Positions 28,465 to 59,105 of a stretch of DNA of 64,000 nt are shown in pieces. The stretch is taken from assembly GCA_022181065.1 (NCBI GenBank), contig BQMY01000116.1:1-64000 (forward strand), in the 5' to 3' direction. Made by a program: the position numbers and the translations under genes. The notes under the pieces are model-generated. The model searched no databases. It had not been told where the DNA came from and worked only from the letters and a program-made list of their open reading frames with translations. The number at the start of each line of letters is the position of its first letter. The first letter of the stretch is position 1. Origin of the DNA: Melioribacteraceae bacterium. GTDB taxonomy: Bacteria > Bacteroidota > Ignavibacteria > Ignavibacteriales > Melioribacteraceae.

Positions 28465-28595
28465 TTATAACCCATCATGCATAAGGCGCCTGACCCAACG
28501 TATTGTAAATAAAAGAGTTATACACACCGGGACTTAAAATGTGGATAACCTCGACTCACCCAAAGGGTTAGGTCGGGTTGATGCGGTTGTTAGGC
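28465..28595 (-). repeat. attC-like recombination site 1 (distal)
   Basis: 131 bp. On the minus strand it opens with the R'' box GCCTAAC and closes with R' GTTATAA. Between them are an imperfect inverted repeat (ACCCGACCTAACCC against GGGTCAGG) and an inner stem (GGTTATCCACA against TGTATAACTC). The sister sites share the pattern. The Fic stop codon lies inside R''. Confidence 0.82.
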
Positions 28596-29766: not shown

Positions 29767-29888
29767 GCCTAACCCATCATGCATAAAACGCCTGACCCAA
29801 CATATTGTAAATAATAGAGTTATACACAGCGCTACTCAAATTGTGGATAATCCTGGCACACCCGAAGGGTTAGGTCGGATTGTTATGT
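29767..29888 (-). repeat. attC-like recombination site 2
   Basis: 122 bp. Minus strand: R'' ACATAAC, then CAATCCGACCTAACCC, an inner stem GGATTATCCACA..TGTGTATAACTC, GGGTCAGGCG, and R' GTTAGGC, a perfect match to the attC core consensus GTTRRRY. Closely similar to site 1. Confidence 0.82.
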
Positions 29889-30536: not shown

Positions 30537-30667
30537 ATATAACCTATCATACATAACCGCGACTTGCCCAACTGAAGTTGGTTAGAACGACTGCCCCGCG
30601 AAGACTAAAATGTTGATAACTTCGGCGCACTTGGCAAGGCAAGTTCCGGTTGACGTGGTTGTTATAA
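30537..30667 (-). repeat. attC-like recombination site 3
   Basis: 131 bp. Minus strand: R'' TTATAAC, AACCACGTCAACCGGAACTTGCC, an inner stem, GGGCAAGTCGCGGTTATGTATGAT in two parts, then R' GTTATAT. Same length as sites 1 and 4, with a more diverged centre. Confidence 0.78.
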
Positions 30668-30886
30668 GTTTTGTTTTATTTATTTCTTAATCGACAGATA
30701 GCCGTTTTTTCATGACAGTTAATTCTTGTGGCGTAGCAGATTACGAGCTACTTTCCTCTTAAACAGAGATAAAGTAAATGAATGTGATAAACCTGTAATT
30801 GCCCCGAAAACCTGCAATGATATATCCAGATTGTTAGTATTTTGTAGTTTATATTATTCAATTATAAATTTGAATTGAAATTCACT

Positions 30887-35968: not shown

Positions 35969-36099
35969 TTATAACCAATCATACATAAGCCGATTAACCC
36001 CAAATGCCTGTAGAGCAAAAGTTATCCAAAGCGAAACCAAAAATGTGAATAACTTCGGCGCACTTGCAGGGCAAATTCCGATTGATGTGATTGTTATAA
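35969..36099 (-). repeat. attC-like recombination site 4 (proximal)
   Basis: 131 bp. Minus strand: R'' TTATAAC, AATCACATCAATCGG, an inner stem AAGTTATTCACA..TGGATAACTTT, AATCGGCTTATGTATGATTG, and R' GTTATAA. R'' and R' are perfectly complementary. Confidence 0.84.
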
Positions 36100-36294
36100 G
36101 TTATTTTTTGTAATTCCTGAATTATTTGATAGCAGTTTTCAATTCATAACGTGTTTGTGTAATATTTCGTTGCGTGTTTCATCAACTAAATTAGCAAATG
36201 CAAGCCGAATAGAAAATCTCCGAGGATTATCGCAAGCATACGCGAACGCGCAATGAGTTACACACACAGCTGCAGATGTATTTTGATATTTTCT

Positions 36295-37295: not shown

Positions 37296-38252
37296 ATGTC
37301 ACACCTGTTAAATACAATGCGCGAAGTAATCCGTGTAAAGAACTACAGTATTCGTACCGAAATAGCATATATAAATTGGGTAAAACGATTCATCGCATTT
37401 CACGAAAACCGACATCCTAAAGAGCTCAATTCAGAACATATAAAAAATTACCTGACTCATCTGGTGGTAAAGCAGAACGTTTCACCTTCAACTCAAAATC
37501 AGGCGCTCAACGCAATAATTTTTCTATATAACAACGTACTCAACATAGAACTTGACGACTTCAATAACTTTCAGCGAGCAAAAAAACCGAAACGGTTACC
37601 CCATGTTTTCACACACGAACAAGCCATAGACGTTATAAACCAGCTTGATGGAAATTTTAAGCTCATGGCTTCTCTTCTTTATGGTTCCGGACTCCGATTA
37701 TTGGAAGTTCTTCGTCTACGTGTGAAAGATGTCGACCCAGGAAGAAAACAACTCCTCATCCGTGAAGCAAAGGGGAAAAAAGACCGATATTCCATACTCC
37801 CGAAAACACTCATAGAACCATTGAAAATCCAATTGAAAAAAGTGGAGATGCTGCATTTTCAGGATTTATCCAACGGATTCGGCGAAGTCTATCTTCCCGG
37901 TGCAATTGCGGAAAAATACCCGAATGCATCAAAAACACTAGACTGGCAATATGTTTTTCCTTCCCCGAGGATTTCAAAAGACCCGCGCTCAGGCAAAAAT
38001 CTGCGCCATCATATTCATGAAAGTAATCTGCAGAGAGAAATCAAAAACGCAATACGTAAAACAGATATCAGATTTCCGGCAAGCGCGCATACTTTCAGAC
38101 ACACATTCGCGACACAACTTTTAATTAACGGATATGATATTCGCACAGTACAGGAATTATTAGGGCATAACGATGTTTCGACAACTATGATCTACACTCA
38201 CGTCATTAATAAAACCGCTGATAATATTAAATCGCCGCTGGATAATTCATAA
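37296..38252 (+). CDS. intI: Integron integrase IntI (tyrosine recombinase)
   Basis: 318 aa. N-terminal SAM-like core-binding domain, then a catalytic domain with Arg134 (GSGLRLLE), His265/Arg268 (HTFRHTFA), His291 ([15 protein letters not shown]) and Tyr300. Diagnostic for IntI versus XerC/D is the extra helix segment at about 200-240 ([36 protein letters not shown]). Role: attI x attC and attC x attC recombination, capturing cassettes as folded single strands. It points away from the array, the standard integron layout. Confidence 0.95.
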
Positions 38253-43595: not shown

Positions 43596-45446
43596 CTAGT
43601 TCCAGTCATCACCTTCTTTGTCGGAATCTTCACTTTTACTTTCGTCCTCTTCAACTTCTTTCTCTTTCTCGAACTTGTAGAGTTCATTTTCGTATTCCGA
43701 TATTTTCGCCTGAAGATTTTTCTCCATCGCGATAAGCTGACTTATTTTAGCAGTATATTCTTCTTTTTCTATCTCAATATTTGCCGTTTCAACTTTAAGT
43801 TCCTGAAGATTCTGCTTATACTCTTCGATATCGGTTCTCAGTTGTTCAGAACGCTCTTCATAAGCTTTAATTTCAGAAATGATCTGCTTCTCTTTTTCCT
43901 CCAATTCATTATAATGCCCTGCGGTGGATTCGAGAAGCTGCTTGATCTGCCCCTGCAAGTCATCTTTTTTATTCTGGAGGAAATCAGTTTCGTTTTTCAA
44001 TTCTTTAAGAAATAATCGGAAACTATTTTCTTTGTCTTTCAGTTCATCAATACTCTTGCCCAGTTCTTTTCTTTCACTATTCAGAGTTTCGATATTTATT
44101 TCAGTCGCTTTTTTCTCTTTCTGTAGTACCTTGATCATACCGGAATATTCGGCATACTGTGAAATTTTTTCGCTCACCTGTTTTTCTTTGTCACGAAGTT
44201 GTTTACCAATCTCCAGCGTTTCCTGTTTTAGCGCGTTGAGATACGATTTTGCGCCCGAAGCATCATCCATGAATTCTGAAAGCGTATCGGAAAGCTTGTT
44301 TTCCAGTTCAAGATAATTCTCCTCCATCTGAAATTTGGCTTTTTCCAGTTCATCTGCCTGACCTCTTATCTTCTTCAGCTCGTCATTCAGCTTCTCTTCA
44401 TCCTCACGTTTTTCGAGGATTTCATTATTAAGTTCTGACTTAACCGATTCAAGACGTTTTATCTCCGAAATCACCTCTTCCTCTTTAGCTTTCAGAGCGG
44501 AAATCCCTTTTTCCAGGTCTTCCTTCTTAACATTATCGATAGCAATATTCTGCTCAAGTGTGGAAAGATCACGTTGTTTCGCCTGTATTTCCTGAACCAA
44601 GCTCTCTTTCTTTGAAGTGTAATCCTGAAACAGGTTATCTTTTTCACTAAGCTGATTTGTAAGGGCTGCAAGCGATTGGTCAAGGCTCGATTTTATCTCT
44701 TCATTGAAAGAAATTTTTTCATTCAATTCGGTAAGACGATTATTTTTTATATGTATCTCACCTTTGTATTCATCAACCTTTTCTTCTAATTTTTCCTTTT
44801 CTTCCCTCAGCTCAACAATACGCTTTTCTGTTTCAACAATTTCAACTTCAAAACTTGTTTTTTTCTCTTCAAGTTCGCCGGACTGACTTTTAAGGTCATC
44901 AATTCTTTCCCGATTGAGCTCAACCTCTTCTGATATTTTCGTTTCGGATTCTTTTAGCGCCGTTGCTTTCTGCTCAAGATCAACTATCTGCATATCAAGT
45001 GTTTCATACTTCGCGGTCAGGTCAGCAATCTTCTCGTCAAGATCACCGATTGTTTTTTTCTTGCGCTCAATTTCATCATCGAGGTTCGAATTAAATGCCT
45101 CATTATCATTCTTTAACTCTTCACTTTGCGAGATTCTTATCTGTAGTTCACCAAGTTTAGTCTCTTCTGCTTCCTGCTTACCGGCGAGATCATCAACGCT
45201 ATTTTCCAGTTCCGCCAATGCGCTTTTTTTCTCTTCGGTCTGGTTTTCAAGATTACGTATATCATTAACCAGTTCATTTTTTTCACGCGCGATATCGGAA
45301 AGTTCCTCACGTGCTTCGGCGAGTTGCTTCTCAACCTTTTCAAGGTCACCCGTTTTTTCCTGTAGCTGATGTATTTGATTTCTTAATTCATCATTCTCTT
45401 CAACAAGTTTATCAATATCCTTACCGGGTCTTTTTAAGAAATTCAT
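43596..45446 (-). CDS. Long coiled-coil protein
   Basis: 616 aa, almost wholly heptad-repeat coiled coil rich in Glu, Lys, Leu and Gln, with no signal peptide, no membrane segment and no recognisable globular domain. N-terminus MNFLKRPGKDIDKLVEEN, acidic C-terminus (ESKSEDSDKEGDDWN). SMC-like in composition but without the ATPase head domains. It may be a cytoskeletal, scaffold or nucleoid protein. Monocistronic, with its own terminator. Coding sense is clear from the uninterrupted frame and strong heptads. Confidence 0.75.
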   Translation of the reverse strand: MNFLKRPGKDIDKLVEENDELRNQIHQLQEKTGDLEKVEKQLAEAREELSDIAREKNELVNDIRNLENQTEEKKSALAELENSVDDLAGKQEAEETKLGELQIRISQSEELKNDNEAFNSNLDDEIERKKKTIGDLDEKIADLTAKYETLDMQIVDLEQKATALKESETKISEEVELNRERIDDLKSQSGELEEKKTSFEVEIVETEKRIVELREEKEKLEEKVDEYKGEIHIKNNRLTELNEKISFNEEIKSSLDQSLAALTNQLSEKDNLFQDYTSKKESLVQEIQAKQRDLSTLEQNIAIDNVKKEDLEKGISALKAKEEEVISEIKRLESVKSELNNEILEKREDEEKLNDELKKIRGQADELEKAKFQMEENYLELENKLSDTLSEFMDDASGAKSYLNALKQETLEIGKQLRDKEKQVSEKISQYAEYSGMIKVLQKEKKATEINIETLNSERKELGKSIDELKDKENSFRLFLKELKNETDFLQNKKDDLQGQIKQLLESTAGHYNELEEKEKQIISEIKAYEERSEQLRTDIEEYKQNLQELKVETANIEIEKEEYTAKISQLIAMEKNLQAKISEYENELYKFEKEKEVEEDESKSEDSDKEGDDWN

Positions 45447-48141: not shown

Positions 48142-48192
48142 GTAAAGACGCCATATGGTTGCTGAGCTTGTCGAAGTAAATGGCGTCTTTAC
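48142..48192. repeat. Long hairpin after the M28 gene
   Basis: GTAAAGACGCCAT and ATGGCGTCTTTAC, perfect 13-bp arms around a loop holding GAGCTTGTCGAAG, a sequence found in another dispersed family. It may also terminate the M28 transcript. Confidence 0.65.
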
Positions 48193-49860
48193 CCAGAAAA
48201 AACACAATTATTTTCGTAGGGGAGGGTCACCGACCCTCCTTTTGCTTGTCACAATCTGTGGATTGTCACGTCCTCCTTTGAAGAAAGTGGATTTCGACGC
48301 CAGTCGAAAGACGGAGGATGACTTTTAAGACCAGCGGATTTGCCAAGGTTAAAAAGTCCTTCCCTTTACTAAAGTTTACAAACCTCAGGTTTGGGAAGTC
48401 CGCCTCAGGCGGATAGGATGGGTTCGTTTAATGTCATGCTGTTTCCGGGGTTTCTCCGCCTTGGGGGACAACGACATTGCTGTTTTTGCAAGGGGCTACT
48501 TCGAGGACCTCAGCAGCCCTTTCCCGACTGCTTCAACAAACAAACATATTTTTTTCGTAGAGGAGGGTCACCGACCCTCCTTTTGCTTGTCACAATCTGT
48601 GGATTGACACGGCCTCCTTCGAAGAAAGTGGATTTCGACGCCAGTCGAAAGACGGAGGATGACTTTTCCGGATATAGCAAAATTCAATCAATCCCTTATT
48701 ACCCCTTCTCCCGAGGCATGGGCTTTTTTATGACGGCTACTTCGAGAACCTCAGCAGCCTTTTCTCGATAATCGCAAATAAAAAAACAAAACCGGTCAAC
48801 AGTTGATAATTTTTAATGTCCTCCTTTGAAGGAGGTGGATTTCGACGCCAGTCGAAAGACGGAGGATGATTTTTAAGTCCAGCAGATTTGCCAAGGTTAA
48901 AAAGTCCTTCCCTTTGATAAAGGGAAGGATTTAGGATGGGTTCGTTTAATGTCATGCTGTTTCCGGGGTTTCTCCGCCTTGGGGGACAACGACATTGCTG
49001 TTTTTGCAAGGGGCTACTTCGAGGACCTCAGCAGCCTTTTCACGACTGCTTCAACAAACAAACATATTTTTTCGTAGGGGAGGGTCACCGACCCTCCTTT
49101 TGCTTGTCACAATCTGTGGATTGACACGTCCTCCTTTGAAGGAGGTGGATTTCGACGCCAGTCGAAAGACGGAGGATGACTTTTAAGTCCAGCAGATTTG
49201 CCAAGGTTAAAAAGTCCTTCCCTTTGATAAAGGGAAGGATTTAGGATGGGTTCGTTTAATGTCATGCTGTTTCCGGGGTTTCTCCGCCTTGGGGGACAAC
49301 GACATTGCTGTTTTTGCAAGGGGCTACTTCGAGGACCTCAGCAGCCTTTTCACGACTGCTTCAACAAACAAACATATTTTTTCGTAGAGGAGGGTCACCG
49401 ACCCTCCTTTTGCTTGTCACAATCTGTGGATTGTCACGTCCTCCTTTGAAGGAGGTGGATTTCGACGCCAGTCGAAAGACGGAGGATGACTTTTTCGGAT
49501 ATAGCAAAATTCAATCATCTCCTTACTAACCTTTGTGCCGGGGCAGAGGTCAAGGGACGGGCAATGTGGGATAGGTTTATTATGACGGCTACTTCGAGGA
49601 CCTCAGCAGCCCTTTCCCGACTGCTTCAACAAACAAACATATTTTTTCGTAGAGGAGGGTCACCGACCCTCCTTTTGCTAGTCACAATCTGTGGATTGTC
49701 ACGTCCTCCTTTGAAGGAGGTGGATTTCGACGACAGTCGAAAGACGGAGGATGACTTTTCCGGATATAGCAAAATTCAATCATCTCCTTACTAACCTTTG
49801 TGCCGGGGCATGGGCTTTTTTATGACGGCTACTTCGAGGACCTCAGCAGCCTTTTCACGA
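48193..49860. repeat. 1.7-kb mosaic tandem array of palindromic elements
   Basis: Gene-free. Recurring parts: GGAGGGTCACCGACCCTCC (48221, 48562, 49079, 49389, 49654), each followed by CACAATCTGTGGATTG, then R1 (48271, 48612, 49129, 49439, 49704; another R1 at 48829), R2 (48900, 49211, a disrupted copy near 48355), a 95-bp block starting GGTTCGTTTAATGTCATGC (48420, 48939, 49250) and CTACTTCGAGGACCTCAGCAG. The unit period is about 310 bp at 49079-49389. Short reading frames across it are judged spurious. Confidence 0.85.
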
Positions 49861-56593: not shown

Positions 56594-57058
56594 AAGTCTG
56601 TCGACAAAGTCGCTTCTTTTTAAAGTCCTCCTTAGAAGGAGGTGGCTTCCGACGAATGTCGGAAGACGGAGGATGATTTATTCCATTTTTTGTGACTTAC
56701 GGTCATCCCCATGACAAAATCCGCCGTTGGCGGAGTGACTTCCCCCTTTAAACCAGTGCACCGTAGGTGTTAGGAGTCCTGAAAATAAACAAACAGGTTT
56801 TTCAACAATCTCAAGTTCCCTTAAACCGGGAGCTTTTTTACATCGGAAGGGATGCCCTGTAACCATCCCCTCTTAATAATTTAGATATCAGTAAAGAGGG
56901 CATTAGGTTGGTGAGCCCAGTCTGCCTGCCCCGCTCGCGGGGAACCATATATCGTCTTTACCACTTTGCACTAACCACTCAGTACTCAGTACTCAGCACT
57001 AAATTATTTCATAAACCTCATTTGTATAATCCTGAAATTGGTTAACTAAAATAAAAAA
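56594..57058. other. Non-coding stretch rich in repeat fragments
   Basis: No gene. Holds an R1 copy at 56626-56676, a CCGCCGTTGGCGG fragment near 56721, a partial copy of the 5' region motif TTTTTCAACAATCTCAA near 56797, and TACTCAGTACTCAGTACTCAGC near 56977 in pieces. Confidence 0.55.
56626..56676 (+). repeat. R1 element copy
   Basis: TCCTCC, TTAGAA, GGAGG, TGG, hairpin CTTCCGAC/GTCGGAAG, ACGGAGGATGA. Its hairpin has C-G where the 48-49 kb copies have T-A. Confidence 0.7.
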
Positions 57059-57083
57059 AGCCCCCGAAAATTTTCCGGGGGCT
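57059..57083 (-). terminator. Terminator of the receiver/SBP/CheW gene
   Basis: Minus strand AGCCCCCGG, AAAATTTT core, CGGGGGCT followed by a T-run. Confidence 0.85.
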
Positions 57084-57125
57084 CGTATCAACCACTACTA
57101 TAACCATAACCAATTAAGGAGAAAA

Positions 57126-59105
57126 CTAAACTTCCTGCATTTCCGCTACCATTTTCCCGGGGGCTTCCACATGATTAAACTTTAATACTTTTTCTACATC
57201 AACTATCATCTTTAAACTTTCATTAATTTTTGCGATTGCCATGATGTAATTTGCTTCATCCGCACTAACAAACGCGGGTGGATTACTGATCTGGTCAGCA
57301 GTTATATTCGCGACTTCGTTCACACCATCCACTGCTATACCCATCTGAAATACCCGTTTCCCGTCATCATGTTCCAGAACTATAATGAAGTTTTTCTCGT
57401 TATACTCTGTTCTTGTCATATTGAACATTGCGCGAGAATCCATCACCGGGATAACGGAGCCCCGTAGATTAATCACGCCAAGAACATACTCCGGACTTCC
57501 CGGATATGGTCTCACTTTTATCATTCTGATGATCTCACGGATTTTCATAATATCAAAGCAATATTGCTGCTCTTCCAGATTGAATATCAGATACTTGCCC
57601 TCCTTGTTCAATAATTCTTTTGCTCTCGAATCCTGTTTGGTATTGGCAGCCCTGTTCATCAGTTTGCTATATTGCTCTGTTGTATCCTTGAGGACAGATA
57701 CTTTTCCTGATTCAGAATCATTTCCGCAGGCAACATCAGCAAACGAAAGATCAACAAATTTATCAAGGTTTATTAAACTTCCAACACCCATTTCATCGTG
57801 CATATATCTCTGAATCTTGTCGAGTGCCTTTACGTCGGGGTAGAGATCATTTGTTTTTATTCCGTTCGGCTCGGTTAGAACGTTTCTTAATAGTGGTACC
57901 TTTAACCCCAATTTCCCATCAGGATCAAGGAACTTCACACCAATTTCAGCTGCGGTTCCCGGATTAGTTTCGATAAATTTACCCGCTTGTACCAGCATCT
58001 TTGTAAATTCCTGCATCGCGTCCTTGTACTTCTCAACAAGCACATCCTGAACCGTAACAACACAGCATGGATGATTTTCCCACAACTCGGATGACAAAAA
58101 CTGAAGATCTGCATTTCCGGCGGCTATAGATTTCGTTCCTAAAGGTTCAGCGACAAAATAACCCGCAGCCTCTTCCGCGCTTGCGAGAAATTCAGGCATT
58201 TTAACCGGTGGAACAACTTCAAAAGCTACATCAACATCATCCTGGCCCGTAACACCCGGTTTCAAACCGATACCATTAAAAAACATATGACCGAGCATAT
58301 TATGGATAGATAAAGTATGAGGTATATAAAACGATTTCTGCCTGAAAAATCCCGCTTTGGAAGATTCAAAATCTCCACCTTTTCTGTTTCGCACCATAAT
58401 ACTTCCATCCTTGTGCGCGAACAATACCAGTTTAAGTGGTGCTCCGTTACTATATAAATCCATCGCGATTGGCGCAAGGACGCAGGCGCCATCAACCTGA
58501 CCCTCATCAAGAGCATCCGCAACCGGGTTCCAACTTGACATCGAAACTGTTTCCAACTCAAAATGTTTCGGCTGCAATTTCCCCGAACGTATGAGGTCTT
58601 TTAATACACCTAGCACAAGGTGATCTGTAATCTGTATGTGTGCGATTTTTAACTTAATCTTTCCATCAGGAGTTAACTCCGGCTCTCTTCTTACAATATC
58701 TTTTTTGTCAACTTTTTCAAGTTCACCAATCGCCTGCAATATTTTAGTTTTTAACTCTGCCGCGTTAAATGGTTTGGATATAAAAGCACTTACACCGGCT
58801 TCTTCCGCCATAGTAACTTCTTTTCGCTCACCCCTTCCGGTTGCCATTACAAACGGTATCTCTTTATACTCCTCTTCCGCCCTTATCCACTTCAGAAGTT
58901 CATATCCATCCATCACAGGCATATTCCAGTCGGAAATGATCACGTGCGGTCGTTCGCCTGTTTTTATTTTGTTTATTGCATCTTCACCATGTTCAGCTTC
59001 AATAATATCTGTTATTCCTAACTCTTTGAGGGTTTTAACCTCCATTTTTCTCATTACGCCGGCATCTTCAACAAGTAGTACCGTAAGTTGATGTAATAGC
59101 TCCAC
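57126..59105 (-). CDS. Receiver / substrate-binding / CheW fusion protein
   Basis: 659 aa, GTG start. Residues 6-127: response-regulator receiver with phospho-acceptor Asp59 (ISDWNMPVMDG), acidic pair Glu13/Asp14, Thr89 and Lys111. Residues 150-465: NrtA/CmpA (NMT1)-type solute-binding fold (KLKIAHIQITDHLVLGVL, DEGQVDGACVLAPIAMDL). Residues 503-650: CheW (KYLIFNLEEQQYCFDIMKIREIIR, GVINLRGSVIPVMD). No signal peptide, so the binding domain is cytosolic. Role inferred: couples a small-molecule or phosphorylation signal to a chemotaxis-type kinase. No che genes are adjacent. Confidence 0.88.
   Translation of the reverse strand: MELLHQLTVLLVEDAGVMRKMEVKTLKELGITDIIEAEHGEDAINKIKTGERPHVIISDWNMPVMDGYELLKWIRAEEEYKEIPFVMATGRGERKEVTMAEEAGVSAFISKPFNAAELKTKILQAIGELEKVDKKDIVRREPELTPDGKIKLKIAHIQITDHLVLGVLKDLIRSGKLQPKHFELETVSMSSWNPVADALDEGQVDGACVLAPIAMDLYSNGAPLKLVLFAHKDGSIMVRNRKGGDFESSKAGFFRQKSFYIPHTLSIHNMLGHMFFNGIGLKPGVTGQDDVDVAFEVVPPVKMPEFLASAEEAAGYFVAEPLGTKSIAAGNADLQFLSSELWENHPCCVVTVQDVLVEKYKDAMQEFTKMLVQAGKFIETNPGTAAEIGVKFLDPDGKLGLKVPLLRNVLTEPNGIKTNDLYPDVKALDKIQRYMHDEMGVGSLINLDKFVDLSFADVACGNDSESGKVSVLKDTTEQYSKLMNRAANTKQDSRAKELLNKEGKYLIFNLEEQQYCFDIMKIREIIRMIKVRPYPGSPEYVLGVINLRGSVIPVMDSRAMFNMTRTEYNEKNFIIVLEHDDGKRVFQMGIAVDGVNEVANITADQISNPPAFVSADEANYIMAIAKINESLKMIVDVEKVLKFNHVEAPGKMVAEMQEV

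Follow-up and report, generated by a model that had tools for sequence, protein, structure and literature searches.

A recurrent fusion of a CheY-like receiver, a substrate-binding domain and CheW, apparently a chemosensory adaptor

What would a chemotaxis coupling protein do with a transporter-type binding domain of its own? The question is raised by a minus-strand open reading frame at 57126-59105 of a 64,000-nucleotide stretch of Melioribacteraceae DNA (contig BQMY01000116.1; hereafter the window). It begins with GTG and encodes 659 amino acids. The first-pass annotation had read it as a receiver, a solute-binding domain and CheW, in that order, and had proposed that it senses an intracellular metabolite for a chemotaxis array. 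A Pfam domain search bears out this order. The Response_reg, NMT1_2 and CheW matches all lie well above the curated cut-offs, the CheW match reaching 119.1 bits against 23.5 for PF01584, and the central domain does match a solute-binding profile (NMT1_2, residues 151-388, 1e-24). The features of the locus are as follows.

57126..59105, minus strand: whole gene, encoding receiver, NMT1_2-type substrate-binding domain and CheW (open reading frame, Pfam, orthologues aligning from the same start region)
58740..59081, minus strand: CheY-like receiver, residues 9-122 (Pfam Response_reg, 7.6e-23; Foldseek and VIA-align matches to CheY)
58929..58931, minus strand: Asp59 in ISDWNMP, the predicted phospho-acceptor (invariant or nearly so in 30 members)
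57726..58664, minus strand: cytosolic substrate-binding domain, residues 148-460 (Pfam NMT1_2, profile match to 3un6, fold comparison)
58062..58073, minus strand: HPCC motif, residues 345-348 (invariant in 30 fusions)
57597..57725, minus strand: variable linker between binding domain and CheW, residues 461-503 (low conservation, low pLDDT)
57180..57596, minus strand: CheW domain, residues 504-642, with the invariant arginine R548 of NLRG (Pfam CheW, 1.5e-34)
57058..57084, minus strand: intrinsic-terminator-like hairpin 3' of the stop codon (12-pair stem and T tract)

The N-terminus is occupied by the CheY-like receiver, which leaves no room for an export signal, in agreement with the first-pass annotation. 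Family alignments show that receiver residues E13, D14, T89 and K111 are kept beside D59. Because the upstream gene is divergent and the hairpin with its T tract follows the stop codon, the fusion gene is apparently monocistronic. No RNA elements were found at 56-61 kb of the window.

Elsewhere in the window, an integron integrase is encoded at 37296-38252 on the plus strand (TIGR02249, 431.7 bits against a cut-off of 265). To its left, attC-like repeats of about 110 bp (28468-28580, 29770-29882, 30598-30677 and 35972-36109) lie between minus-strand genes for Fic, GNAT, NAD(P)-binding and AraC-type proteins. Integrase and repeats together apparently form a chromosomal integron with a gene cassette array. 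The gene-poor interval 48154-49860 holds five copies of a 224-nt repeat and a 45-nt repeat family, and the ORFs called within it look spurious. At 43596-45446, on the minus strand, a 616-aa protein is almost all coiled coil and gave SMC/Rad50-like coiled-coil matches only.

To judge whether the fusion is real, we considered its distribution. Full-length homologues occur sporadically in the same class, in 13 of 391 genomes including the window's own; five of these carriers were first found in a phylum-level sample. In a second phylum (Desulfobacterota-like, the one that includes the 'Deltaproteobacteria' MAG G692) 16 of the 297 genomes searched carry the fusion, one copy being truncated by a contig end; in the phylum to which a Thermodesulfovibrio MAG belongs, 1 of 198 does. 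The labels Ignavibacteria-type and Desulfobacterota-like, as used here, come from named relatives of the searched groups. In the phylum of G697 the profile search returned no member at 1e-40 among 398 genomes, and in that of G690 none at 1e-15 among 39, absences that hold at these thresholds only. Family proteins are about 640-730 aa long and share 51-58% identity with the window protein within the class and 43-53% in the other phyla. A scan with the window's own domains found the same receiver, binding domain and CheW order in the complete members, and Pfam confirmed it in four.

Such full-length homologues of the same order, in the class and in other phyla, exclude both a chance juxtaposition and an error in the local assembly. 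The first-pass annotation had allowed for an artefact of sequencing or assembly that fused three genes; with independent orthologues in about 30 genomes from at least three phyla, their frame open throughout, we give that explanation practically no credence. In a tree, the 30 fusion binding domains separate from seven stand-alone relatives with branch support of 100/98, consistent with a single origin of the fusion. Genome G772 (L188/L189) has, beside the fusion and the genes for CheX and a 4Fe-4S protein, a stand-alone, signal-less binding domain that the tree places as the neighbour of all fusion binding domains and that could be either an ancestral form or a partner working in the cytosol. 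Our search of open-access papers found no description of a Response_reg-NMT1_2-CheW architecture. The architecture is real and recurrent, apparently undescribed, and probably that of a chemosensory adaptor.

The window's genome encodes 10 MCP proteins and five CheW-domain proteins, namely three stand-alone CheWs, CheA and the fusion. One contig carries flagellin, fli genes, cheR, two cheY, cheA and cheB (Pfam identified cheA; the other genes were recognised from their sequences). Most fusion loci, the window's included, are orphans lacking a chemotaxis neighbour, and across about 29 loci we found neither a conserved operon partner nor a recurrent metabolic neighbour. Among the loci with chemotaxis-related genes close by, a receiver gene lies 32 bp upstream of the fusion (L190), CheX 51 bp downstream (L189), a divergent CheW gene on the opposite strand (L141), and an MCP either 149 bp upstream (L197) or 1.9 kb away (L138).

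The most informative locus belongs to a genome with two copies of the fusion (G930). The second copy sits inside a complete che operon in the order cheW-MCP-MCP-MCP-fusion-MCP-cheR-cheB-cheA; further receiver and CheX-like genes follow CheA (L196, L210, L211). In its CheW domain this copy shares 78% identity with the operon's own CheW and only 44% with the other fusion copy, while between the two copies the binding domains show 64% and the receivers 57% identity. The simplest reading is apparently that this fusion exchanged its CheW module for that of the local array, which would be expected if the job of the CheW domain is array docking. Genomic context and the domain swap together make docking into MCP-CheA arrays a well-supported prediction, and operon membership and the swap lend weight to the link to a chemotaxis array first proposed for this gene.

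Is the central domain still a working part of the protein? It is the most conserved of all the domains, at 0.77 among 13 members and 0.70 among 30, followed by the receiver (0.76 and 0.64) and the CheW domain (0.61 and 0.58). The linkers average about 0.3-0.4 (0.30-0.43 for the one before CheW, against 0.58-0.77 in the domains). These figures together speak for a functional binding domain. A profile built from the 13 orthologues best matched Staphylococcus aureus 3UN6 (6.9e-20), whose structure title records bound zinc; the regulatory domains of NrtC and CmpC, together with NrtA, followed at about 1e-6 to 1e-5. The AlphaFold model of the fusion is of moderate quality (pLDDT 73.5, pTM 0.58). 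Aligned with VIA-align, it gives Z scores of 28-31 to CmpA, 3UN6, NrtA and the NrtC and CmpC regulatory domains and about 24 to the sulfonate-binding SsuA/TauA. These values corroborate the NrtA/CmpA-like fold noticed at first pass, a type II periplasmic-binding-protein fold with an rmsd of about 3 Å over about 315 residues.

Fused and exported forms have the motifs TDHL, a Trp, H..GS, SxH, AEP and HxCC in common, and H345, C347 and C348 are kept in 7 stand-alone relatives, CODH-linked proteins among them. Since the same SBP-type motifs are kept in exported transporter relatives, the conservation suggests that the predicted ligand site is retained in the fusion. The fusion is the sole NMT1_2 protein of the window's genome, so no transporter is implied, and no transporter genes were found beside it at the locus.

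The identity of the ligand is where we depart from what the first-pass annotation suggests in calling the binding domain nitrate/bicarbonate-type. Cys348 aligns with the Lys of the xPxKV motif in NrtC and CmpC. By chain numbering this position would be that of Lys269 in NrtA and Glu271 in CmpA. CmpA Glu271 contacts bicarbonate (PMC13249358). Cys348 apparently occupies the position of the NrtA Lys/CmpA Glu anion contact; it is invariant in the 30 fusions, and the Lys of NrtA, NrtC and CmpC or Glu of CmpA is not kept. This Cys, and the fact that the closest sequence relatives belong to the 3UN6/CODH-linked subfamily, make nitrate or bicarbonate a less likely ligand. We favour one that would use the invariant His/Glu/Cys set, whether a transition metal or a different solute.

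The nearest stand-alone relatives that we examined come from the second phylum and from a presumably Chlorobi-like family in the same GTDB phylum as the window; they are encoded in CooS-binding protein-permease-ATPase operons and have export signals, as read from sequence. From this context the CooS genes are probably of clade B. Clade B Ni-CODHs are associated with NitT/TauT transporters whose binding module is 3UN6-like and for which Ni import has been hypothesised (PMC6344411), and clade B CODH operons are found for the most part together with ABC-transporter genes (PMC13056359). A ligand tied to CO dehydrogenase was considered and rejected. Among Desulfobacterota-like genomes, CooS is encoded by 14 of the 15 carriers tested and by 8 of the 13 non-carriers sampled; G1186 has it too. 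None of the 13 Ignavibacteria-type carriers does, so the ligand is not necessarily connected with this enzyme. We likewise rejected a link to nitrite ammonification: the nitrite reductase NrfA is found in 7 of 13 carriers and, within the same family, in 11 of the 18 non-carriers sampled, and carriage of the fusion therefore does not track this trait. In two genomes (L203, L204) the fusion directly adjoins genes for 2-oxoacid:ferredoxin oxidoreductase subunits, a possible hint at the ligand.

Taken together, we think it probable that the protein is a soluble CheV-like adaptor with its own cytosolic ligand-binding domain and a receiver that CheA can phosphorylate. In this mechanism, the CheW domain would dock the fusion into the MCP-CheA array. 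The cytosolic NrtA/3UN6-type domain, judging by fold and conservation, would close on a small internal solute, and the receiver, its active site being intact, would take phosphate from CheA at D59. Ligand binding and phosphorylation would jointly alter the coupling that the CheW domain provides between receptors and CheA. An internal solute could in this way bias swimming with no dedicated chemoreceptor, and phosphorylation of the receiver could give feedback or adaptation.

Three other readings of the intact protein have to be weighed against this one. It might be a nitrate/nitrite or bicarbonate sensor for chemotaxis that retains NrtA/CmpA chemistry. CmpA, NrtA and the nitrate-sensing regulatory domain of CmpC are among its closest folds, and the Trp, Ser-x-His and Ala/Gly-Glu-Pro motifs are common to the fusion and that group; however, all members have Cys at the apparent Lys (NrtC, CmpC) or Glu271 (CmpA) position, carriers show no enrichment of NrfA, and we regard this sensor as unlikely. 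We hold it equally improbable that the central domain binds no solute and is a dimerisation or protein-docking module in a plain CheV-type adaptor. Transporter-derived domains can serve as protein-interaction modules, a general precedent that speaks for such reuse, as does the missing transporter partner in the genome, but the invariant residues cluster in the SBP motifs ITDHL, SxW, H..GS, SxH, AEP and HPCC.

It is less plausible still that the protein serves mainly as a phosphate sink, or as an output response regulator whose targets lie outside chemotaxis (in transport or metabolism, for instance), CheW doing no more than tethering it. A canonical CheY-like receiver and the two loci beside the oxidoreductase genes would fit that role. 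It sits poorly with membership of a che operon, with a CheW domain replaced by the array's own CheW, and with some 29 loci that have no metabolic neighbour in common.

The CheV-like adaptor with a ligand domain is thus the reading that we prefer. More tentatively, and with less than even confidence, the family could represent a widespread, undescribed receptor-free input, in which a soluble adaptor detects a solute inside the cell (a transition metal, perhaps) and combines this signal with CheA phosphorylation directly where CheW sits in the array. Inputs to chemotaxis are generally held to enter via chemoreceptors, CheW and CheV being couplers. If the proposal is true, a coupler with its own ligand domain would let cells adjust their steering to how much nutrient or metal they hold inside, no receptor being involved. 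The family is sizeable and crosses phyla, and one genome has the fusion in a complete che operon, so tests of binding, phosphorylation and motility are feasible.

Among known systems, the fusion would work most like CheV, in that a CheW docking domain and a CheY-like receiver are joined in one soluble protein for which CheA phosphorylation and modulated coupling are expected. Yet the CheV domain order is reversed here, with the receiver (9-122) first and CheW (504-642) last, and the fusion carries an inserted substrate-binding domain of about 310 residues; CheV is not known to have a ligand-binding domain. NasS, of NasST, offers a parallel for the central domain: it is a signal-less, NrtA-like intracellular nitrate sensor, although its target is an ANTAR antiterminator and not chemotaxis. 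The C-terminal regulatory domains of NrtC and CmpC likewise keep an NrtA-like fold in the cytosol as a sensor, and nitrate sensing by that of CmpC is a precedent for such a role (PMC13249358). Theirs are fused to an ABC ATPase and gate transport, whereas the domain described here is joined to chemotaxis modules and has Cys-Cys in place of their Lys-containing motif. From NrtA and CmpA themselves the fusion differs in apparently not keeping their anion-contact residue and in having no export signal or ABC permease and ATPase partners.

The nearest sequence subfamily is that of the CODH-linked proteins and 3UN6, which have the H..GS, SxH, AEP and CC motifs in common with the fusion; the ITDH motif occurs in the fusion and the CODH-linked binding proteins but not in 3UN6. 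The CODH-linked proteins are exported transporter components, whereas the fusion is cytosolic and has no CooS or ABC neighbours. Finally, the fusion would resemble methyl-accepting chemoreceptors in feeding ligand information to CheA. Unlike them, it has neither an MCP signalling domain nor a transmembrane sensor, and the protein that bears CheW would itself be the point of input.
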